Shown here in pieces: positions 1-18,183 of a DNA stretch of 20,148 nt. How positions within the stretch are numbered: the first letter of the stretch is position 1; every line of letters begins with the position of its first letter. A program made the position numbers and the translations under genes. The notes under the pieces were generated by a model. It worked only from the letters and a program-made list of their open reading frames with translations, was not told where the DNA came from and ran no database searches. Location: positions 1 to 20,148 of IMG/VR virus record IMGVR_UViG_3300025120_000751. One strand, 5' to 3'. Source of the DNA: a virus.

Positions 1-210
1 AATATTCCACATAGCTGGATAATGAGAAACCATTATGAAGATAGCACATTCCTTGCAGCTATGGAGTTTATCAGAGATAACGGATATCAAGAAAGATTTT
101 ATTCTAAAGTGTATACATATTACAACATAGGAGAACATAAGTATTGGGTAATGACGGATAAACAAGGATTTAACGATAAAACTGCAATAATTAACAGAGC
201 TAAAATATGA
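1..210 (+). CDS. 3' end of an unknown aromatic-rich protein (partial)
   Basis: The reading frame is open from the first base (reading NIPHSWIM...) to the TAA at 208-210, so the gene very probably begins upstream of the window. The ATG at 22 is probably an internal methionine. About 69 residues are visible. They are rich in Tyr, Phe, Trp and His, with segments such as FIRDNGYQERFY, YTYYNIGEHKYWVM and INRAKI. No signal peptide or membrane segment is seen in the visible part. I do not recognise the family. The stop overlaps the ATG of the methyltransferase by 4 bases (ATGA), so it belongs to the same translational unit as the methyltransferase, PP-loop and ParB-like genes, and it may be part of the same modification system; that is inference from position only. 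Confidence 0.7.
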   Translation, partial: NIPHSWIMRNHYEDSTFLAAMEFIRDNGYQERFYSKVYTYYNIGEHKYWVMTDKQGFNDKTAIINRAKI

Positions 211-833
211 GTATTAAACAAATAGGAAAACACCGAGTATCTGAAAACGATATACAAAATGTTGATTTCAATAATTTATTAGAGGGTAAAAAAGCATATA
301 TACTTTACACCGATCCTCCTTGGGGAGATGGTAATATGAAATATTGGTGTACATTAAACAAAAGACATACTGGCAAAGAGATTGAGGCTATGTCTTATAA
401 GCAGCTAATACAAATAATTAGAGGCATTATAGTTAATAACGTAGATGGATATGTATTCTTAGAGACTGGCAACAAATGGCTAGAGGAGACTAAAAACGAT
501 CTCAAGGATATTTTATTTAATGCAGAGACTTATTCCCTTAGATACAAGTCTGGAAGTAAGCTATTGACTAATCCAGTTATTGTAGGATCTACAAACCCTA
601 ATATTAAGTTGCCAGACCTATCAAGCCTTGAGGGTGCAATAGATGAGAAGAGTCTAGAGATAGCTATTCCATTACTTGCAAAAGAGGGAGAGATATTATT
701 AGATCCTTGTTGTGGAATGGGCAACTCAGCTAGGAGTGCTATAAAGAATAAGATGGCATTCGTTGGCAACGAGTTTAATGCAAAGAGATTGCAAAAAACA
801 ATCAAGTCATTAGAGAAAGATGAAAATATATAG
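207..833 (+). CDS. Beta-class SAM-dependent DNA (N6-adenine/N4-cytosine) methyltransferase
   Basis: A 208-residue methyltransferase. The catalytic motif IV, DPPW, is at residues 36-39, preceded by the hydrophobic strand AYILYT. The SAM-binding motif I, LLDPCCGMG, comes late, at about 164-172, followed by an FVGNE motif (184-188). The order motif IV before motif I is that of beta-class amino-methyltransferases, and DPPW suits N6-adenine or N4-cytosine methylation of DNA. An RNA-directed MT-A70-like activity is less likely. The middle part, between the motifs, would carry target recognition and is short, so the protein may be a stand-alone phage methyltransferase without a restriction partner; no endonuclease gene is adjacent. 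It overlaps the gene before it by 4 bases and the PP-loop gene after it by 14 bases. Its likely role is to mark phage DNA or regulate it before packaging. Confidence 0.85.
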   Translation: MSIKQIGKHRVSENDIQNVDFNNLLEGKKAYILYTDPPWGDGNMKYWCTLNKRHTGKEIEAMSYKQLIQIIRGIIVNNVDGYVFLETGNKWLEETKNDLKDILFNAETYSLRYKSGSKLLTNPVIVGSTNPNIKLPDLSSLEGAIDEKSLEIAIPLLAKEGEILLDPCCGMGNSARSAIKNKMAFVGNEFNAKRLQKTIKSLEKDENI

Positions 834-1986
834 CAAGACTAATGTATTAACGGAAGCAGAAAATAGGATTAACAGACTATTTGACGAGTTTGAAAATGTA
901 GTCGTTGGATTTTCTGGTGGCAAAGATAGTACAGTCTGCTTAAATCTCACATTAGACATTGCAGAAAAGAGAGGCAGATTACCTTTAAAAGTAGTATGGG
1001 TAGATCAAGAAGCAGAGTGGCAAGGAACGGCTGATTATTGTGAGTCAGTATTCGCTGACAAAAGAATAGAGCCTATGTGGTTTCAGATACCAATGAAATG
1101 GTACAATAACGTATCTTCATCGGAAAAGTATATACATATATGGGAGGAGGGCAAAAAACACATTAGAGAGCGTTCTAGTATATCCATAAAGGATAATGTA
1201 TATTTAGACTTTGGTTTTCACGAATTATTTGAGCGTATTTTTAAAGTGCATTTTCCTAATCAAAAGTCTTGTTACATTTCTGGTGTAAGAACGGAGGAAA
1301 GCCCAAAAAGATTAATGAGCCTCACAAGTGGATTAACTTACAAGGATATTACTTGGGGTAAGATCTTAAACAGAAAACTTGAGCATTATACTTTTTACCC
1401 TATTTATGATTGGAGTTATTCTGATGTCTGGAAGTATATATTTGACAACAACATAGAATACAATAGAATCTATGACGAATTATTTAGGCAAGGGGTAGGG
1501 GTTACAAATATGAGGATATCTAACTTGCATCACGAAACGGCTATACAGAATTTATTACTGATACAAGAGATTGAACCAGACACTTGGAACAAGGTTGCAG
1601 AGAGAATAGATGGGGTTAATGCAGTTAAACACTTAAAGGACGAATCATTTAGATGTCCAGATAATTTACCTCATATGTTCAAGTCTTGGAAAGAATACGC
1701 ATTTTTCTTACGTGACAAGTTAGCTGATGATGAAGATTTTGTAAATAAAATGAATAAGGTTATCAAAAAGAATGAGAAGTATATGATCACTAATCTTGTT
1801 TATGTAGATTTTTACAAGCAGATAATTAAGACGATCTTATCGCAAGACTTTGACTTTACAAAAATAACGAACTGGATGACTTCGCAATATTTTAATACAG
1901 TTAAAAAATACGTTGACGGAAAGATTACTAGACAAAACATAGAGATAAATAAGAAGTACAATAAATATATAAAAGAACTATTATAA
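820..1986 (+). CDS. IbrA-like PP-loop ATPase, PAPS reductase family (DUF3440 type)
   Basis: A 388-residue protein of the adenine nucleotide alpha-hydrolase/PAPS reductase superfamily. The PP-loop SGGKDS is at residues 32-37 and binds the nucleotide pyrophosphate. Other family signatures are VWVDQEAEW (59-67), SGVRTEES (154-161) and YPIYDWSYSDVW (193-204). The long C-terminal half, with MRISNLHHE and a helical tail, is like the DUF3440 part of E. coli IbrA rather than a short sulfate-assimilation CysH. I see no C-terminal CysH-type ECGLH motif, so sulfate reduction is unlikely. DndC, used in DNA phosphorothioation, belongs to the same superfamily, but no cysteine desulfurase or DndDE partner is visible here. 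The next gene is ParB-like, which reproduces the ibrA-ibrB pairing. The biochemical role is unknown; nucleotide or DNA modification, or regulation, is possible. Confidence 0.85.
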   Translation: MKIYSKTNVLTEAENRINRLFDEFENVVVGFSGGKDSTVCLNLTLDIAEKRGRLPLKVVWVDQEAEWQGTADYCESVFADKRIEPMWFQIPMKWYNNVSSSEKYIHIWEEGKKHIRERSSISIKDNVYLDFGFHELFERIFKVHFPNQKSCYISGVRTEESPKRLMSLTSGLTYKDITWGKILNRKLEHYTFYPIYDWSYSDVWKYIFDNNIEYNRIYDELFRQGVGVTNMRISNLHHETAIQNLLLIQEIEPDTWNKVAERIDGVNAVKHLKDESFRCPDNLPHMFKSWKEYAFFLRDKLADDEDFVNKMNKVIKKNEKYMITNLVYVDFYKQIIKTILSQDFDFTKITNWMTSQYFNTVKKYVDGKITRQNIEINKKYNKYIKELL

Positions 1987-2654
1987 TGACTGATAATTTA
2001 AGCAAGGAACTAACTAAGGCATTAAGCATAGAAGATAACATAGAACTTATTGAAGAGATAAAAGAGATGTTACATAAAAACTCTGTTCTTAAAACTCAGC
2101 CAATAAACAGAATTAAATGGGCTAAGATCGAGGAGGTAACGCCAAACGATTACAACCCTAATTCAGTAGCTAAAAAAGAAATGGGGCTATTATATACGTC
2201 TATAAAGCAAGACGGATACACTCAGCCAATAGTTACTATTTACGATCCTAAAGAGAAAATGTATGTTATAGTTGACGGATTCCATAGGTACTATACTGCA
2301 AAGACTAATGAAGATATACTAGAAAGAAACAAGGGACGTATTCCGATCGTAGTAATTGACAAAGATATTAACGACAGAATGGCAAGTACAGTTAGACACA
2401 ATAGAGCAAGAGGTATGCATAGCGTTACTGGTATGTCAAATATGGTTTTCCAGATGCTAGAAAATGGTTGGAGCGATGAGGATATATGCAACGAGGTAGG
2501 ATTAGGCATAGAGGAGCTTGTCAAATTAAAGCATATAACTGGTTTTTCTAAGCTATTTGAGGACGCAGAATATAATAAGGCTTGGGAGACTAAAAATCAA
2601 ATCAAGTTAAAGATAAACTATAAGAAAGGGCAAGAGGGCAATGGACAAAAATAG
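1986..2654 (+). CDS. IbrB-like ParB/Srx-fold protein
   Basis: A 222-residue protein with a ParB N-terminal domain at about residues 43-145. It begins with a WAKIEEVTPNDYNPN strand and includes IKQDGYTQPIV and the GxHR-type nucleotide-binding signature VDGFHR (96-101), then RHNRARG (137-143). A predicted helix-turn-helix-like segment follows (about 162-182). It lacks the length and central domain order of a chromosomal ParB, and no ParA is next to it, so plasmid-style partitioning is unlikely. Its ATG overlaps the stop of the IbrA-like gene in a TAATG arrangement, so the two are almost certainly made together, as with ibrA/ibrB of E. coli. ParB-fold proteins bind CTP or act as nucleases in other systems; the activity here is not known. 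The gene overlaps the terminase small subunit by 14 bases. Confidence 0.82.
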   Translation: MTDNLSKELTKALSIEDNIELIEEIKEMLHKNSVLKTQPINRIKWAKIEEVTPNDYNPNSVAKKEMGLLYTSIKQDGYTQPIVTIYDPKEKMYVIVDGFHRYYTAKTNEDILERNKGRIPIVVIDKDINDRMASTVRHNRARGMHSVTGMSNMVFQMLENGWSDEDICNEVGLGIEELVKLKHITGFSKLFEDAEYNKAWETKNQIKLKINYKKGQEGNGQK

Positions 2655-3021
2655 ACACATAAAAAAAGAGTCTCTGCTGAAATCCTTAGAACAAAGCCTT
2701 GGGGTAGTAACCGTGGCTTGTAGTCAAGCAGATATTCCGAGAAGCACTTACTATAAATGGCTAAATGAAGATGATGAATTTGCTAAACAAGTTAAGGAGA
2801 TAGAGAATGTTGCACTAGACTTTGCAGAGAGTAAGCTACACGCTCAGATAGAAAGTAACAATACCTCTGCCACTATATTCTTTTTGAAAACAAAAGGGAA
2901 GAACAGAGGATATGTAGAGCGTACAGAGGTACAACAAGAAACAACCTACAAGAGCCTAGACATAAATATAATAGATACTGGCGTACCATTAGCGTCTAAT
3001 GAGAAAGATATAGTTGATTAA
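2641..3021 (+). CDS. terS: Terminase small subunit (helix-turn-helix)
   Basis: A 126-residue protein whose N-terminal half has a helix-turn-helix of the form GVVTVACSQADIPRSTYYKWL (split around residues 21-41), followed by the acidic helix NEDDEFAKQVKEIE, typical of small terminase subunits that recognise the packaging start on phage DNA. A middle helical stretch (AESKLHAQIESNNTSATIFFLK, split here only for description) suits oligomerisation. It lies between the ParB-like gene, which it overlaps by 14 bases, and the large terminase, which it overlaps by 8 bases. The position directly before the large subunit supports the call more than the sequence alone does. Confidence 0.82.
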   Translation: MDKNRHIKKESLLKSLEQSLGVVTVACSQADIPRSTYYKWLNEDDEFAKQVKEIENVALDFAESKLHAQIESNNTSATIFFLKTKGKNRGYVERTEVQQETTYKSLDINIIDTGVPLASNEKDIVD

Positions 3022-4171
3022 GACCAGTCCACTATATCACAAGAACTATAAGTCTACTGCCGACGTAGTAGTGAATCAAGGAGGTACGTCCTCTGGTAAG
3101 ACCTATGCTATTTTACAAGTATTATTTAGTAAGGCTATAAATGAGGTATGTACAATTACAATAGTAGGGCAAGATATACCTAATCTTAAGGTAGGTGCTG
3201 GAAGAGATGCAGAGGATATTGTAGTTGCTTCACCAGCAATAAAACAACAGATCGTATCCTTTCATATGTCAGATAGAGTCTTTACATTTAGGAATGGGTC
3301 TATAATCGAATTCAATAGCTATGACAACGAGCAAGATGCAAAGTCTGGTAAAAGAGATTATTTATTTGTTAACGAGGCTAATGGTATACCCTACAACGTA
3401 TATGAGCAACTATATTTAAGGACAAGAAAACAGACTTTTATTGATTACAATCCAGATGCTAGTTTCTGGGTGCACGATAAGGTTATTCCTCTGTCAACTA
3501 CTGAGCTAATAATATCTGATCATAGGCATAACCCTTTTCTCAGTAATAAGGTAAGGGAGAAAATAGAGGCTCTAAAGGACAAAGATATGGATCTATGGAA
3601 AGTATATGCTAGGGGCATTACTGGCAGAATAGAGGGTCTAGTATTAAGGAACTGGTACATAACTAAGGACGACTTTAGTGATAAAAAGCTTGTAGGATAC
3701 GGAATGGATTTTGGTTTTGCTAATGATCCGTCAACGCTTATAGAGGTGCGTATGGAGGATGGAGAGCTATATGTCAAGGAATTATTGTATGAAACTGGAT
3801 TAACTAATCAAGACATAAATAATAGAATGAGTATATTGGGGATAAGTAGAGGAACGTTAATTGTAGCTGATTCTGCCGAGCCTAAAAGTATTGAAGAGCT
3901 TAGAAGATTAGGTTGGACAATAGATGGCGTTAAAAAGGGCTCTGATAGCCTTATGTTTGGTTTAAATCTACTTAAAGGGTACAAGATAAATGTAGACGCA
4001 AATAGCTCTAATTTAATTAAGGAGCTTGAACAATATAAATGGAGAGTTAAAAAAACTGGGGAAACAATAAATACTCCAGTAGATAAATATAATCACGCAA
4101 TAGATGCCTTAAGGTATTTAGTTATGCACAAATTTAGTAAAAAAGGATATGGACAATACGCAGTCATTTAA
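3014..4171 (+). CDS. terL: Terminase large subunit (packaging ATPase and nuclease)
   Basis: A 385-residue DNA packaging motor. The N-terminal ATPase has Walker A GGTSSGKT at residues 23-30 and Walker B YLFVNEA at about 116-122. The C-terminal RNase H-like nuclease shows acidic residues in GMDFGFANDPS (Asp232), VADSAEP (Asp286) and HAIDALRY (Asp364). The architecture is that of the Terminase_3 (PBSX/SPP1-like) group. The start must be a TTG at 3014: an in-frame TAG sits just before it, and no in-frame ATG occurs before Walker A. The start overlaps the small subunit gene by 8 bases, so it is probably translationally coupled. It would act at the portal, which here lies more than 11 kb downstream. 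Confidence 0.95.
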   Translation: MIKTSPLYHKNYKSTADVVVNQGGTSSGKTYAILQVLFSKAINEVCTITIVGQDIPNLKVGAGRDAEDIVVASPAIKQQIVSFHMSDRVFTFRNGSIIEFNSYDNEQDAKSGKRDYLFVNEANGIPYNVYEQLYLRTRKQTFIDYNPDASFWVHDKVIPLSTTELIISDHRHNPFLSNKVREKIEALKDKDMDLWKVYARGITGRIEGLVLRNWYITKDDFSDKKLVGYGMDFGFANDPSTLIEVRMEDGELYVKELLYETGLTNQDINNRMSILGISRGTLIVADSAEPKSIEELRRLGWTIDGVKKGSDSLMFGLNLLKGYKINVDANSSNLIKELEQYKWRVKKTGETINTPVDKYNHAIDALRYLVMHKFSKKGYGQYAVI

Positions 4172-4745
4172 GATCTCGGTTAGGCAATACCAAGAAATCA
4201 ACGGAATAGATGAGAGTTTATCATTAGTTGAGCAGAATATCTACGCAGTAGCAGCGATCAAGGATATCACATACGAGGAGGCATCTAAGATTAAGATGTC
4301 AGAATTCAAGAAAATAGTAGATCAGCTAAACGATTTCAATGTAAGGCTATTAGAGAAGCTAAGAATAAGAAACAAGATCTTTCTTAACGGAACAGAGTAC
4401 CACATTGAGCATAAGCCAGATAAGCTAACTAGTGGACAACTACTAGACGTTATTAATGTAAGGAGTAAGAATCAAGGGGAGGCAGTAAAGGTAATGCACC
4501 TACTCCTAGCTGCTATGTGTAGACCTAGAGGCAAGGAATATGGTGACGACAATATAAACCTAGAGGAGAGGGCAAAGCTAATTCAAGAGGTAGATTTACC
4601 AGATGTATGGAATGTCTTTGTTTTTTTTTGGAATCTTTGGAACGATTACTTGAGCGATTCAGAGGACTCTTTGAGCAAGTGGATGAGGGAGACGTTGGAG
4701 ATGACAAAAGAGATTTTGGACAACGATGGGGACTCTTTAGCGTAA
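4149..4745 (+). CDS. Tail assembly chaperone, short form (gpG-like)
   Basis: The zero-frame product is 198 residues. The N-terminal part (ISVRQYQEI, EQNIYAVAAIKDITYEEASKI, MSEFKKIVDQLNDF) and the central HKPDKLTSGQLLDV region resemble tail assembly chaperones of siphoviruses, which bind the tape measure while the tail tube is built. The last 38 residues, after the slippery site, are acidic and look like a simple tail. The ATG at 4149 lies inside the end of the large terminase gene (23-base overlap). In most siphoviruses this gene directly precedes the tape measure; here the tape measure is about 6 kb downstream. A longer frameshifted form is described separately. The family call rests on sequence pattern and the frameshift; a search would be needed to confirm it. 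Confidence 0.7.
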   Translation: MDNTQSFKISVRQYQEINGIDESLSLVEQNIYAVAAIKDITYEEASKIKMSEFKKIVDQLNDFNVRLLEKLRIRNKIFLNGTEYHIEHKPDKLTSGQLLDVINVRSKNQGEAVKVMHLLLAAMCRPRGKEYGDDNINLEERAKLIQEVDLPDVWNVFVFFWNLWNDYLSDSEDSLSKWMRETLEMTKEILDNDGDSLA

Positions 4746-4870
4746 TAAAGGCTATGGCAGATTTACACAATATTAGTATTAACGAGTCTACTAAATTAGG
4801 TGCAATAGAATTCCTAAACTGGTGGGCATATATGGTAGAAAAAGAAGATTATGACAGATCAACAAAATAA
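4149..4870 (+). CDS. Tail assembly chaperone, long form by -1 frameshift (gpGT-like)
   Basis: A -1 shift at the T-run (4622-4628) would join residues 1-160 of the zero frame to 80 residues of the -1 frame, giving a 240-residue protein that ends at the TAA at 4868-4870. The -1 frame is open from before the T-run and has a protein-like end: GLFSVIKAMADLHNISI and AIEFLNWWAYMVEKEDY. Without a shift, the 106 bases between 4745 and the next ATG at 4851 would have no clear coding role, and this segment would lack a start other than the ATG at 4607. The arrangement matches the lambda G/GT pair in function and direction of shift. An independent start at 4607 is the main alternative. Confidence 0.75.
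4622..4630 (+). promoter_or_regulatory. Slippery site for -1 programmed ribosomal frameshifting
   Basis: A run of nine T residues (4621-4629) follows a G. In the zero frame the codons are GTT TTT TTT TGG. The heptamer T TTT TTT followed by G fits the X XXY YYZ rule, so both P- and A-site tRNAs can re-pair after slipping back by one base. A weak hairpin (TCAGAG 4659-4664 with CTTTGA 4669-4674) lies about 30 bases downstream, further than usual for a stimulator. No strong Shine-Dalgarno-like stimulator is seen just upstream. Confidence 0.72.
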
Positions 4871-5420
4871 ATTATACGATAGTTTAACGGACTATTGGCA
4901 AAAGATAGTAGATGACCTAGTAAAATCGTTGTATGATGTAGGTAGGGTCGCTAGTGGAGCTACTGCTCAGAGTATAGGTGCTTTAAACCCTATGCCAATA
5001 ACTTTTACCTCGACTGGATTTAAGGTGCAAATTAATATGCCTAAGTATTATCAGTTTATTGATGAGGGTGTAAGTGGAACAAAGAGGAATACTGGCATAA
5101 GTAGGTTTAAGTATAAAACTAAGCTGCCCAATATATCTGCTATTAGAAAGTTTATGGTCAATAGGGGTATAAACGATTTCTCTGACATTAAGTCAAAGAG
5201 AGGATATGCTCGAAAGAACACAACCTCTGGTAAGCGTAGGGATGCTGAGGAGATCAGAAAGTCTATTGCATTCGTAATAGCAAGGAGTATATTTGAAAAT
5301 GGTGTAGAGCCTACAAATTTTTACTCTAATGTCATTAATGATCAAGAGTTAATAGACTTTGAGCGTCAATTATTCGTTGAATATCGCAAGTATATTGTAG
5401 GATTAATAAAAATAAATTAA
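4851..5420 (+). CDS. HK97 gp10-like tail completion / head-tail joining protein
   Basis: A 189-residue protein. The pattern KYYQFIDEGVSGTKRNTG (residues about 64-81) followed by FKYKTKLPNISAIRKFM and a C-terminal IAFVIARSIFENGVEPTNFYS resembles the HK97 gp10 family of Bacteroidota phages, in which a 'Y-fxdxGv-G' loop precedes basic, flexible sequence. Such proteins act at the head-tail joint or tail terminus. The start ATG overlaps the end of the frameshifted chaperone by 20 bases, which supports translation through that region. It is the last gene before a short non-coding stretch containing a promoter. It might alternatively be a minor head protein; the structural class is surer than the exact role. 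Confidence 0.68.
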   Translation: MTDQQNKLYDSLTDYWQKIVDDLVKSLYDVGRVASGATAQSIGALNPMPITFTSTGFKVQINMPKYYQFIDEGVSGTKRNTGISRFKYKTKLPNISAIRKFMVNRGINDFSDIKSKRGYARKNTTSGKRRDAEEIRKSIAFVIARSIFENGVEPTNFYSNVINDQELIDFERQLFVEYRKYIVGLIKIN

Positions 5421-5425
5421 AAAAA

Positions 5426-5457
5426 GTGTAGGATATTAAAATTATTGTATATATTTG
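5426..5457 (+). promoter_or_regulatory. Bacteroidota-type promoter
   Basis: TATATTTG at 5450-5457 is an exact match to the Bacteroidota -7 consensus TAnnTTTG. A GTG at 5426-5428, 21 bases upstream, is an imperfect -33 TTG element. The predicted transcription start, near 5464, leaves a short A-rich leader before the ATG at 5481. It lies in the first sizeable non-coding gap of the window, directly after the gp10-like gene. Confidence 0.6.
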
Positions 5458-5480
5458 TAATACAATTAACAACAATAAAG

Positions 5481-5714
5481 ATGACAAGACAACAATTTTA
5501 CGCAAAACACAGAGAAAGAACAGAGAATTTTGACACAGATAGCATTTTAATGCGAATAGTATCAACTCTATCAGATCTTCAGCACGTCAATAACTTTAGA
5601 GGTAACAATAAAAAGCAAGATATTAACGATATCTGTAATGCTCTAAAGGATTACATATTCGATTACAAAGACCTTATAACACTAGAGGAAGATATCAAAG
5701 AATTTATAAAATAA
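5481..5714 (+). CDS. Small helical protein of unknown function
   Basis: A 77-residue, charged protein with several predicted helices (SILMRIVSTLSDLQHV, DINDICNALKDYIFDY, TLEEDIKEFI). I chose the ATG at 5481 because it follows an A-rich leader (AACAACAATAAAG). A longer frame from a TTG at 5445 would start inside the promoter and upstream of the predicted transcript start. No membrane segment, Cys cluster or recognisable catalytic motif is visible. It is the first of two genes in a unit bounded by its own promoter and a terminator, so it may be expressed apart from the structural genes, as a phage moron would be. Confidence 0.7.
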   Translation: MTRQQFYAKHRERTENFDTDSILMRIVSTLSDLQHVNNFRGNNKKQDINDICNALKDYIFDYKDLITLEEDIKEFIK

Positions 5715-5722
5715 ACAAAACA

Positions 5723-6280
5723 ATGAACACACAAACAAAACAACAAACAAGAAAAGTAGGAGTTGCTGGAGGATTTATCAATCAGATGATGGGTAATAAT
5801 AGATCAGAGCCAGTAGTTGGCAAGGGAGCTACAATACTACACTACTCAGATAGAGCAGCGTACGAAGTAATCGAAGTATCAAAAGACAAAATGAGCTGCA
5901 TAATTAGAGCAATGGATTGCAAGAATGTAGGTAGGTGCTACGGAGATGAGCAATACGAATACAAGAGCGATCCAAATGGAGTAGAATTGCACTTAGAATG
6001 GAATACTAAAAAAGGATGCTGGGGTAAAATATGGTACACAATCGAAATAATCAAAGCCCTAATAAAAAAGTATGAGAAAGAACACGGATATGATTCTATG
6101 AGCATCCTACTTAAAGATCACGGACTTAATAATTATGATGAATTATATGAAGATCCAGAAGCAGATAATTTTCAACACCCAAAAAAGTTAATAAAAGGCT
6201 TAACAAAAGAATACAAGAATTTTAGCAAAGTATCAATCATATTTGGTATAATGGAAGAATATAGAGATCCGCACTTTTAA
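5723..6280 (+). CDS. Conserved-looking phage protein of unknown function
   Basis: A 185-residue protein. After a Gln/Lys-rich start (residues 1-12), it has GVAGGFINQMMGNN, then a probable beta domain containing VGKGATILHYSDRAAYEVIEV, four Cys residues in the first half (about 57-70 and near 98), and GDEQYEYK. The C-terminal half is helical and charged. The pattern is familiar from Bacteroidota phage and prophage proteins, but I know no function. It has no signal peptide or membrane segment. The ATG at 5723 follows an A-rich leader 8 bases after the previous gene, and an intrinsic terminator lies 20 bases after the stop. Its lysine- and glutamate-rich content differs from the surrounding structural genes. 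Confidence 0.75.
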   Translation: MNTQTKQQTRKVGVAGGFINQMMGNNRSEPVVGKGATILHYSDRAAYEVIEVSKDKMSCIIRAMDCKNVGRCYGDEQYEYKSDPNGVELHLEWNTKKGCWGKIWYTIEIIKALIKKYEKEHGYDSMSILLKDHGLNNYDELYEDPEADNFQHPKKLIKGLTKEYKNFSKVSIIFGIMEEYRDPHF

Positions 6281-15383: not shown

Positions 15384-15746
15384 ATGGACATAATAGAACA
15401 AGACGCTACAAATTACATTTATTGCAATATCTCAAATGAGGTAGTTAATGCTTATTACACTATGTCTATTCAAAGTGCTGAGTACGAAGTAAACGCTACT
15501 CTTGCAGCTCCAGTAGGGGTAAATAATAGGTACGTTAAATTTACGTTAATAGAGGGGACGCAAGACCTTTCTAATGCAACAATAGAGCTACCTAACAAGG
15601 GAGATTATCCTTATAAAATAATAAATGCCACTACATTAGGAGGAACAGAGGGGATAGAAATACACAGAGGTATATTAAGATTGAAACAACCAAAAGAAAT
15701 TGTATATTCGTTTACTGACGAGCAAAATACTTACATATATGAATAA
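15384..15746 (+). CDS. Small beta-rich phage structural protein, unknown role
   Basis: A 120-residue protein without membrane segments. Alternating hydrophobic strands (ATNYIYCNIS, AYYTMSIQSAEYEV, RYVKFTLIEG, GDYPYKIINAT, EGIEIHRGILRL) suggest a small beta sandwich. I do not recognise a named family; proteins of this length and style are common between tail and portal genes in Bacteroidota phages. Its start lies 11 bases after the terminator, and its stop overlaps the portal gene's ATG (15739) by 8 bases, so translation is probably coupled to the portal. A role in the connector or tail is an inference from position. Confidence 0.65.
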   Translation: MDIIEQDATNYIYCNISNEVVNAYYTMSIQSAEYEVNATLAAPVGVNNRYVKFTLIEGTQDLSNATIELPNKGDYPYKIINATTLGGTEGIEIHRGILRLKQPKEIVYSFTDEQNTYIYE

Positions 15747-18183
15747 GTTTCCAATTATAACTGAGTTTACTTCACAAGAAGTGCCTAAGTTTTTAGAGAA
15801 AAAGAACAAAAATATAGTCTGGTTTGGTGCAGATAATATGTACCCTTACGAGTTAATAGACTTGTACAATGATAGTAGTACACATAATGCTATAATTAAT
15901 GGCAAGGTGGGCTATACAATAGGCAACGGATTAGAGGGAGAGGATCTAGAGACTAAAAAATGGCTAAGTCAAGCTAATATAGATCAAGATTGGACATCTT
16001 TAATGAAGAGTTTGTCATTAGATTACGAGATATTTAATGGCTATGCTATTGAGGTAATAAAAACTAAGGTGGGTAACCAGTACCATCATATAGATTTTGC
16101 CAATATTAGAGTAGGATTAGATGGCAGTATACAATATGCAGACGATTGGATTACTGACAAGGGGACAAAAAACTCTAAACCACATATTCAGTATCTAGAA
16201 AGATATAATCCAAGAAATCCAGAACAAAAAAGAGGTGTTATTTATCACGTTGATTATAGACCTAACTTTAAATTTTATCCTTTGCCAGTATATGTAGGGT
16301 CTTTGGCAGAGATTAAAACTGATGTTCAGATAGGAGATTACTGGCTAAACGAGGTAGAACACGGATTTGTAGGAGGAACACTAATACAACATAATAATGG
16401 TGTACCAGAAACTAAGGAAGAATCGGAAACATTTGAAAAAGCATTTCAAGAAAAGTTTGGCAAGGCTACTGGTACAAAAATAGTACACTTATTTAGTCCA
16501 TCTAAGGATAATGCAAGTGAAATTACTAGCTTAAATGGTAATGATCTACACGAAAGATATGTAGAAATGTCTAAAAGAGTAAAGGAATCTATATTTATTG
16601 GGCATAGAGTTACCAATCCGATCTTATTTGGTGTAAAAGAGGAGGGGCAATTAGGTGCTCGTAACGAGCTTGATCTAGCATATGAGATATTTACTAATAC
16701 TTATATTGCAGAACGTCAAAATACGCTCCTTAGAACGATTAAAAAACTAGCATTTTACGAGATACAAAGAACAGATATTGACATTATACCTCTAAAACCA
16801 ATAGACGCTATTGACTTAACAAGCGATATTATACTTGCAAACCTAGATAGAAACGAGATTAGGGAGCTTATTACTGACCAAACTGGACTTGAACTTGAAG
16901 AGGCTATTGAAGAGCCAGTAGAGATGTCAGAAGATTGTGGTTGTAGCGAATTTAAGGAGCCTTGCTGGAAAGGATACGAGATGATAGGTATGAAACTAAA
17001 GAATGGCGTACTTGTACCTAACTGCGTACCAGAAAAGATGTCGCAAGACCTTGCTAAGATCGTACAAGATAATAAACCACTATTTGATACAATAGAAGAG
17101 GCAGAGAGTGTAGCTCAGCAAATAGGTTGCGAGGGATATCACGAACATAATATAGACGGAAATATATGGTATATGCCTTGCTCTAGTCATTCAGAGATAA
17201 ATGACAAGAATTTAGACGAGTTTAGTGCTATAACAAAATTTGATACATATAATGACTATCCAAAATCAGCTAGTAAAAATGCACAAACTGCATTAAATTG
17301 GGCAGAGAAAAACGGATGGGGAGGTTGTGGCACGGCAGTAGGTAAAAAGAGAGCTAATCAACTTGCAAAAGGGGATAATATAAGCAGAGAAACAATAGCT
17401 CGTATGGCAGCCTTTGAACGTCATAGAAAGAACTCAAAGAAAAAACTTGGAGACGGATGTGGTCGTTTAATGTGGTTAGCTTGGGGAGGCGATGCTGGTG
17501 TAGCTTGGGCACAGAGAAAATTAAAACAAATAGATGCAGAGAAAATGTCTGCTTGTAGCTGCTTTTCTAATGACGAGGATATTAGCGACCTATTTGACAA
17601 GATAGGGGTGCCAGAGGAGGGTTATGAGATAATAGAAAACTTTGACATTAATTATGATACAGACGGAAGTCCTATTGAATTCGCAACAGAGGAGCAAGGT
17701 GTCATACAGAGAGTGCTGAAAACGATCCTTACAAACCCTTTAATAGCTGCAACTGGAATTTCTGAGGTTTTAGGGCTTAATTTCGAGGAGTTAGTAGGTG
17801 CAATAAATATTCTAAGCACTTCTGATCTTATTACAATAGAGGGTAGTGACATAGGCTTGACTAATATAGGGGAGAGAGTTGCAAAAACAATAGATCTACC
17901 AGAAACAGAAGTAAAATACAGATACGAATTAAGACCAGATGCTCCACCATTAAAAGCTGGAGGAGAGTCAAGAGACTTTTGTAGAAAGATGATGGCTAAA
18001 AAAAGGCTTTGGTCAAAAAAAGAAATAGACGTAATGCGTAATGGTATGAAATCGAGTGGCATAGCAGACGTCACAGACGTTTGGTTGTCAAGAGGTGGTT
18101 GGTATAGGAAACCTAATACATCTACATCAGTACCTTATTGCCGTCACATATGGAAACAAGTTTTAGTTAGAAAGAAAAAATGA
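15739..18183 (+). CDS. Portal protein with extra C-terminal modules
   Basis: An 814-residue protein, about twice a usual portal. Residues 1-390 are portal-like: VWFGADNMYPYELIDLYNDS (27-46), HNAIINGKVGYTIGNGL, LSLDYEIFNGYAIEVI, then ESIFIGHRVTNPILFG and a helical stem with NTLLRTIKK. Then come: a Cys-rich piece (399-432, with CWKGYEMIGMK and VPNC); a segment at 449-486 with GCEGYHEH and WYMPCSSH, a possible metal site; a Trp/Gly-rich module at 504-598 (NDYPKSASKNAQ, QLAKGDNISRETIARMAAF, WLAWGGDAG); a probable winged helix at 655-717; and an end (725-806) with SRDFCRKM, GGWYR and YCRHIW, like the C-terminal part of MuF-type minor head proteins. I use the ATG at 15739; a TTG at 15700 would add 13 residues overlapping the previous gene. 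Confidence 0.88.
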   Translation: MNKFPIITEFTSQEVPKFLEKKNKNIVWFGADNMYPYELIDLYNDSSTHNAIINGKVGYTIGNGLEGEDLETKKWLSQANIDQDWTSLMKSLSLDYEIFNGYAIEVIKTKVGNQYHHIDFANIRVGLDGSIQYADDWITDKGTKNSKPHIQYLERYNPRNPEQKRGVIYHVDYRPNFKFYPLPVYVGSLAEIKTDVQIGDYWLNEVEHGFVGGTLIQHNNGVPETKEESETFEKAFQEKFGKATGTKIVHLFSPSKDNASEITSLNGNDLHERYVEMSKRVKESIFIGHRVTNPILFGVKEEGQLGARNELDLAYEIFTNTYIAERQNTLLRTIKKLAFYEIQRTDIDIIPLKPIDAIDLTSDIILANLDRNEIRELITDQTGLELEEAIEEPVEMSEDCGCSEFKEPCWKGYEMIGMKLKNGVLVPNCVPEKMSQDLAKIVQDNKPLFDTIEEAESVAQQIGCEGYHEHNIDGNIWYMPCSSHSEINDKNLDEFSAITKFDTYNDYPKSASKNAQTALNWAEKNGWGGCGTAVGKKRANQLAKGDNISRETIARMAAFERHRKNSKKKLGDGCGRLMWLAWGGDAGVAWAQRKLKQIDAEKMSACSCFSNDEDISDLFDKIGVPEEGYEIIENFDINYDTDGSPIEFATEEQGVIQRVLKTILTNPLIAATGISEVLGLNFEELVGAINILSTSDLITIEGSDIGLTNIGERVAKTIDLPETEVKYRYELRPDAPPLKAGGESRDFCRKMMAKKRLWSKKEIDVMRNGMKSSGIADVTDVWLSRGGWYRKPNTSTSVPYCRHIWKQVLVRKKK

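Follow-up and report, generated by a model that had tools for sequence, protein, structure and literature searches.

The first 2.7 kb of the viral record IMGVR_UViG_3300025120_000751 (20,148 bases, probably a fragment; this whole stretch is called the window here) encode a methyltransferase, a PP-loop ATPase of the IbrA family and a ParB-fold protein of the IbrB family, directly followed by the terminase genes. The IbrA-IbrB pair probably forms the core of a modular pathway for hypermodification of phage DNA; the methyltransferase would be the tailoring enzyme that now occupies an exchangeable slot in this phage. For the three coupled genes at positions 207 to 2654, a system of DNA modification, protection or regulation had been proposed from the sequence (the original prediction), and a role in DNA modification turned out to fit best, judged by the enzyme families of the slot and by the genes that replace the cassette in control loci. 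What goes beyond that proposal is the exchangeable tailoring slot itself, together with the observation that the upstream partner of the pair is often not a methyltransferase.

The methyltransferase, IbrA and IbrB genes of the window form a real, conserved unit. All genes of this region lie on the plus strand and overlap. A truncated small gene (positions 1 to 210) is followed by the methyltransferase (207 to 833, 208 amino acids), IbrA (820 to 1986, 388 amino acids), IbrB (1986 to 2654, 222 amino acids) and the small and large terminase subunits (TerS and TerL). The overlaps amount to 14 bases between methyltransferase and IbrA, 1 base between IbrA and IbrB (TAATG), 14 bases between IbrB and TerS and 8 bases between TerS and TerL. 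The reading frames and overlaps described originally were all recovered, as were the motifs DPPW, SGGKDS, YPIYDWSYSDVW and VDGFHR in the three cassette proteins. The 388 codons of IbrA exceed the longest stop-free run (234 codons at most) in 200 shuffles of bases 1 to 3000; the open reading frames (ORFs) of the methyltransferase and IbrB do not exceed this maximum by length alone, and both have homologues. The small gene had been listed at 22 to 210, but no stop interrupts its frame back to base 1, and the start of the window truncates it. It belongs to a family, called g62 here, with a conserved domain of about 92 amino acids located directly upstream of the variable slot.

The three genes are linked in other phages as well, so that a lack of conserved linkage, which would have spoken against the original prediction, was not observed. 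A search with a profile of the methyltransferase family, the seeds of which were taken from IbrA loci so that distant members may be missed, yielded 72 loci, or 62 after 10 duplicates were dropped. Among the 37 loci flanked by 2.5 kb or more at either end, IbrA was found in 36 and IbrB also in 35. The remaining 25 loci are cut; here 18 contain both genes, 3 IbrA only, 1 IbrB only and 3 neither. This methyltransferase family is dedicated to the IbrA-IbrB pair. Within its alignment, DPPW and the S-adenosylmethionine (AdoMet)-binding DPxCGxG motif are invariant, and DPPW preceding DPxCGxG is the beta order of methyltransferases. The window protein itself stays below the cut-off of the N6_N4_Mtase family (PF01555; 16.7 versus 26.7 bits) and no match to this protein was obtained at 1e-5 among 50,697 phage records. 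Among solved structures, the family profile is nearest to CcrM (3e-4).

The usual gene order, as seen in the first 80 IMG/VR loci, is ParB2 (a second ParB-like gene), an optional SpeD-like gene, g62, variable genes, IbrA, IbrB, an optional ParB2, TerS and TerL. The variable genes encode methyltransferases, GNAT, glucosyltransferase-like, AdoMet-decarboxylase-like or SET proteins. The exchange is visible among close relatives: L003, the IbrA of which is 99% identical to that of the window, carries an additional GNAT gene between methyltransferase and IbrA, and in L004 (81%) a gene of the GT_A family replaces the methyltransferase. Of the 160 loci from two scans, 18 had an identical IbrA, 5 no IbrA ORF and 35 short flanks; without these, 102 viral IbrA loci remain. 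IbrB is present in 96 of these and g62 in 65, while g62 occurs in none of the 41 terminase relatives without IbrA described below. The slot families are represented by MTb (33 loci), GT_B (32), GNAT (27), SpeD (14), MT32 (12), GT_A (11), OX41 (11), GT_C (4) and TylF (2; a model from a single seed, which also matches control loci), and at least one of these nine families is found in 85 of the 102 loci. The proposed tailoring enzymes are therefore clustered with the proposed core enzyme. Elsewhere, g62 is fused to a SET domain (L064, by Pfam) or to a class I methyltransferase (L215). In cellular loci, a GNAT-like gene lies within three ORFs of IbrA in 21 of 75 cases, mostly directly upstream.

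The labels of the slot families are backed by Pfam for GNAT (weakly), the TylF methyltransferase, AdoMet_dc (3e-22) and SET (2.3e-9). The SpeD-like family scores just below the equivalog cut-off (72.2 versus 75.65 bits), and S70, H75 and C90 are invariant in 12 sequences; their spacing is the one known for the catalytic Ser, His and Cys. For the glycosyltransferases, GT_C matches the glucosyltransferase PHROG 854 (3.7e-4), as does a gene of phage Hendrix. GT_A and GT_B have no direct match in Pfam or PHROG, and their label derives from profile similarity (GT_B to GT_C 98%, GT_A to GT_B 79%) as well as DxD-like motifs judged by eye. A spirochaete contig (L103) contains a phosphatidylserine-decarboxylase-like gene (5.7e-36) within the cluster, presumably another pyruvoyl-type decarboxylase. 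Two candidates were rejected. OX41 (the '41' family) had been regarded by eye as a dioxygenase, which found no support in Pfam, NCBIfam or PHROG, nor does the family resemble the TET profile; it is treated as an unknown family yet is among the nine families counted. Furthermore, the apparent glycosyltransferase-IbrA fusion of L005 (a single ORF of 644 amino acids) differs from L004 by one A within an A-run at the junction and was not used.

As a control, loci were collected by the terminase. In the window, TerL (positions 3014 to 4171) matches Terminase_3C (3.4e-18) and Terminase_3 (2.7e-9) and served as anchor; TerS (2641 to 3021), a weak match (PHROG terminase small subunit 2.2e-6; Sf6_terminase 2.5e-4, below cut-off), marks the boundary of the cassette. 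The scan yielded 80 loci, 2 of them without a recognised TerL ORF, and 43 that extend 3 kb or more upstream of TerL; IbrA is present in 2 of these 43 and absent in 41. The models for SpeD, GT_A, GT_B, GT_C and GNAT also had no matches in these 41 relatives. At the same place they carry a Tet_JBP dioxygenase (11 loci), a ParB-methyltransferase fusion (7) or a TAGT gene (2), and 19 of the 41 have one or more of these; Pfam matches in control examples bear out Tet_JBP, TAGT, ADDT (amino acid:DNA transferase) and N6_N4_Mtase. Conversely, the TET model did not match in any of the 160 IbrA-scan loci. The TET/JBP cassettes with TAGT or ADDT thus share the position between a ParB protein and the terminase with IbrAB, but use a different core chemistry. 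In this phage lineage, DNA-modification genes are thus often found between ParB2 and terminase, with IbrAB as one alternative among several. It is mainly this positional argument which leads us to name DNA as the likely substrate.

The IbrA-IbrB pair is ancient and is found far beyond this lineage. In profile scans, IbrB is at most three ORFs away from IbrA in 70 of the 80 bacterial and archaeal genome loci (of the others, 5 had no IbrA ORF called, 4 had no IbrB and 1 was at an edge) and in 68 of 80 viral loci from IMG/VR (otherwise 6 without IbrB, 3 at an edge and 3 without an ORF). The 50,697 phage records contain 215 matches to IbrA and 218 to IbrB, with organism tallies that are nearly alike, not compared record by record. 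In 10 named phages both genes are adjacent or one small gene apart; in Hendrix the pair spans the ends of the map, and this genome is described as circularly permuted in a passage of PMC7302621. The proposal that the last two genes of the cassette reproduce the E. coli ibrA-ibrB pair also holds: in K-12 the pair corresponds to ybdN-ybdM, located beside citR and dsbG, with the same two families in the same order and overlapping genes. The IbrA of the window is 26% identical to YbdN and the IbrB 41% identical to YbdM. In contrast to the window, no tailoring slot, methyltransferase or terminase adjoins the K-12 genes. A terminase is near the pair in only 2 of the 10 named phages, Hendrix and FCV-1. 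Its proximity is therefore a feature of the lineage, and the suggestion that the system acts late, which had been drawn from this proximity, was not upheld.

IbrA contains a PAPS_reduct (PF01507; 4.2e-18, 66.4 bits versus a cut-off of 22.5) and a DUF3440 domain (PF11922; 3.6e-8, 33.8 versus 25 bits), and PHROG 2302 covers most of the protein (1.3e-81). Within 21 aligned diverse sequences, including YbdN of K-12, the PP-loop, DxE, GxRxxE and YP..DW are invariant, and the catalytic site at the PP-loop varies little or not at all. By contrast, no cysteine column is conserved in this alignment; across 62 viral sequences, the most conserved one reaches 81%. The scores against PAPS (phosphoadenosine phosphosulfate)-reductase models are far below the cut-offs (23.7-28.7 versus 154-254 bits; at equivalog or subfamily level 26.6 versus 165.1 and 28.7 versus 154), and the matches to DndC (35.5 bits, cut-off 290.4) and BrxP (36 bits) are weak. 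An asparagine-synthetase Pfam match was not found in the window IbrA at E <= 0.1. The AlphaFold2 model (pLDDT, the predicted local distance difference test, 86.9) is nearest to the PAPS domain of FAD synthase (Z 17.5, root mean square deviation (rmsd) 3.5, 171 residues aligned) and to CysD (Z 16.6, rmsd 4.1, 173 aligned), and also resembles TilS/MesJ (Z 12.9, rmsd 3.2, 162 aligned); the comparison covers residues 3-252 of IbrA and 41-186 of IbrB, and the absence of a family from these lists proves nothing. Since a conserved cysteine is lacking, a sulfur relay, a DndC-like Fe-S site or PAPS reduction by IbrA, and with these phosphorothioation or thiolation, appear unlikely from the alignments.

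IbrB is predicted to combine a ParB/sulfiredoxin-fold domain for NTP binding (about residues 41-126) with a helix-turn-helix DNA-binding domain (about 131-186). ParB_N is matched slightly above its cut-off (4e-6, 27.2 versus 26.3 bits), PHROG 2159 covers most of the protein (2.1e-69) and the motifs NxYNPN, DGxHR and RHNRARGxH are invariant. In the AlphaFold2 model (pLDDT 77.5) the ParB/sulfiredoxin domain is joined to a DNA-binding domain of the KorB type. The closest folds are the CDP-bound ParB (Z 12.2, rmsd 3.0, 95 aligned) and a serine kinase (Z 9.9, rmsd 1.6, 76 aligned) for the N-terminal domain, and KorB (Z 9.1, rmsd 1.3, 56 aligned) for the DNA-binding domain. For other ParB-fold proteins, binding of ATP, GTP or CTP is described in passages of PMC12704722.

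Mechanistically, the following picture would fit. IbrB would bind DNA via its helix-turn-helix and a nucleotide via its ParB/sulfiredoxin domain and thereby license or place IbrA, the proposed adenylating enzyme. With ATP at the PP-loop, IbrA would adenylate an oxygen of a base or of a base-borne group, and a non-sulfur nucleophile would then replace or use the AMP. The enzyme of the slot would complete the adduct, by methylation in this phage and by acetylation, glycosylation, pyruvoyl-type decarboxylation or SET methylation elsewhere. The finished modification would probably shield the phage DNA from host nucleases. Genes for decarboxylases, acetylases and methylases recur, which would point to an adduct bearing an amine, although this is speculative. 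A more specific version, which we consider tentative and rather unlikely, is that the pair installs a new class of DNA base. Here IbrA would activate a base oxygen by adenylation and join an amine or amino acid to it without sulfur, similar to the action of lysidine synthetase on tRNA. The attached side chain would then be decarboxylated by the SpeD-like or the L103 enzyme, acetylated by GNAT, methylated by the SET or DPPW enzyme or glycosylated, and swaps of the tailoring enzyme would result in combinatorial DNA bases on one core, which would also be that of ybdN-ybdM in K-12.

Known systems show similar partnerships. In passages of PMC12783734, CmoY of the CmoA-CmoX-CmoY system (Synechococcus phage S-B43) is described as using ATP to ligate glycine to a phage DNA base, and ParB genes are described as frequent in contigs with CmoY; this is an AMP-forming ATP ligase acting on DNA with ParB-domain neighbours. 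In contrast to IbrA, CmoY is an asparagine-synthetase homologue, and the terms 'PAPS' and 'IbrA' do not occur in the main text of that paper. In the Dpd system the ParB-like ATPase DpdB assists a DNA base-modifying enzyme (a passage of PMC12839542), but DpdA is a homologue of tRNA-guanine-transglycosylase that inserts deazaguanine and not a PP-loop ATPase. A proposal that IbrA-IbrB modifies DNA was not found in the literature covered, which leaves aside a possible earlier mention in Iyer et al. 2013, the main comparative survey of phage base modification.

Several points weigh against the hypermodification reading. The slot families were defined on the neighbours of IbrA and the loci were counted as independent irrespective of their relatedness; Fisher values for the slot counts share this limit and were given no weight. 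IbrA occurs in only 2 of the 43 usable terminase relatives, so the control represents a neighbouring lineage; of its loci, 12 of 41 match a slot model via ParB-methyltransferase fusions (MTb) or TylF, and glycosyltransferase-like genes of other families as well as one ABC-GNAT are present. One methyltransferase locus with both flanks (L461) is without IbrA. So are the stretches fetched for L354 and L355, which carry SpeD at 61% identity, and the loci of SpeD homologues at <=34% identity (L361-L413). No tailoring set was seen beside the pair in 9 of the 10 named phages, several of which have a Snf2-like helicase instead, and the pair stands alone in E. coli K-12 as well as in many loci of enterobacteria; such a modification is not known from K-12 DNA. 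A modified nucleoside of any IbrAB phage has not been reported in the literature covered, and the only phenotype met is that E. coli IbrAB reportedly activates the prophage eib genes, as the title of Sandt 2002 has it. Finally, FAD synthase and CysD, the nearest folds of IbrA, direct the AMP to phosphate or sulfate and not to a carbonyl, and the IbrA model is as compatible with such an adenylyl transfer as with carbonyl activation.

The reported activation of eib genes fits a transcriptional switch, in which IbrB would be a ParB/KorB-like clamp on DNA and IbrA its co-activator, and prophage genes or late genes would be switched on by the two. The KorB-type domain of the IbrB model is in line with this, and regulator genes adjoin the pair in some phages. 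Nevertheless, we consider a switch unlikely, since a co-activator would not need the PP-loop site that IbrA retains, the slot with glycosyltransferases, GNAT, methyltransferases and decarboxylases as well as the TET/JBP replacements would be left unexplained, and regulation could itself follow from DNA modification. The pair and the slot enzymes might instead act on a target other than DNA, such as RNA (tRNA included), a protein of the phage or a small molecule, a reading to which we also assign a low probability. The PP-loop relatives TilS and TtuA, both fold matches, work on tRNA, and GNAT, SET and glycosyltransferase enzymes often act on proteins; on the other side stand the predicted DNA-binding domain of IbrB, the DNA-modification enzymes kept by sister phages at the same place and the proximity of the methyltransferase profile to DNA methyltransferases such as CcrM.

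A sulfur modification of the Dnd type, i.e., a phosphorothioate or a thio-base with sulfur from a host desulfurase, is very unlikely. The original prediction had already disfavored classic phosphorothioation; this conclusion stands on the lack of a conserved cysteine in IbrA, whereas the missing desulfurase, on which the prediction had relied, says little, because the host IscS can stand in for DndA according to a passage of PMC10853773. The same source describes DndC, likewise a PP-loop ATPase, as paired with the ParB-superfamily protein DndB, which together with the weak matches to DndC and BrxP would speak for such a system, but also a three-cysteine Fe-S site and a cysteine dyad in DndC that have no counterpart in IbrA. 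PADLOC gave no match of the DndD/DndE type (or SspB/C) in the 14 window proteins scanned, which counts for little in a 20-kb fragment. That IbrB is a ParB-like protein for genome partition or packaging with incidental neighbours would agree with its 14-base overlap with the terminase gene in this lineage; this is even harder to defend, given that the terminase is rarely near the pair in the named phages, that the partition-type ParB model TIGR00180 is not reached (25.6 versus 58.45 bits) and that cellular chromosomes carry the pair without terminase. Least credible, and in our view close to untenable, is the annotation of IbrA as a PAPS reductase that boosts sulfate assimilation of the host as an auxiliary metabolic gene (AMG). 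The PF01507 domain is clear, and PAPS-reductase-like phage genes are so labelled in passages of PMC10434257 and PMC8879888, but the scores against the reductase models are far too low, without a conserved cysteine there is no catalytic one, and the near-constant partner is a ParB-fold protein.

If the hypermodification reading is correct, a function would be assigned to a pair found in Bacteroidetes, Proteobacteria, Firmicutes, actinophages and E. coli K-12, which has so far been read as a sulfur gene and a partition gene. Phage DNA hypermodification would gain a new core for which tailoring variants already exist, and the 20-year-old question of IbrAB function would become testable by mass spectrometry. 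A class of false 'sulfur AMGs' would also be removed from virome studies; phage 'PAPS reductase' genes (PHROG 2302/424) tallied in this way may be of the IbrA type, without the conserved cysteine.

Some further observations concern the surroundings of the pair. In L082, which has a methyltransferase identical to that of the window, ParB2 (with a zinc-ribbon-like C-terminal end) and an AdoMet-decarboxylase-like gene immediately precede the small gene and the methyltransferase, and by analogy both may also lie upstream of the window start. Upstream of ParB2 in this locus, positions 4730-6082 encode a protein of 450 amino acids, part of which matches a PHROG glycosyltransferase (7.4e-46); an ORF of the same length lies at this place in several relatives without IbrAB. 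In L070 (1247-2329) and L071 (8001-9083), IbrA is interrupted by one in-frame stop within the same translation, representing a broken gene or a recoded stop. In Streptococcus and Flavobacterium phages (L090, L091, L092), a Snf2-like helicase (PHROG 62) adjoins IbrA-IbrB and no tailoring enzyme was seen; such a helicase perhaps gives access to the DNA. The Fusobacterium phage phiFN37 (L480/L096) carries the pair close, with few genes in between, to a further ParB-like gene and to genes for a queuine tRNA-ribosyltransferase and a queuosine transporter; this phage may thus also have a set for 7-deazaguanine modification of DNA. A family of about 290 amino acids is encoded directly upstream of IbrA in another phage group (L105, L236, L244, L246), and its member in L236 has no NCBIfam match. 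Within the window, positions 15700-18183 encode a portal protein, the long C-terminal extension of which has a DUF3721 match and cysteine-rich stretches.

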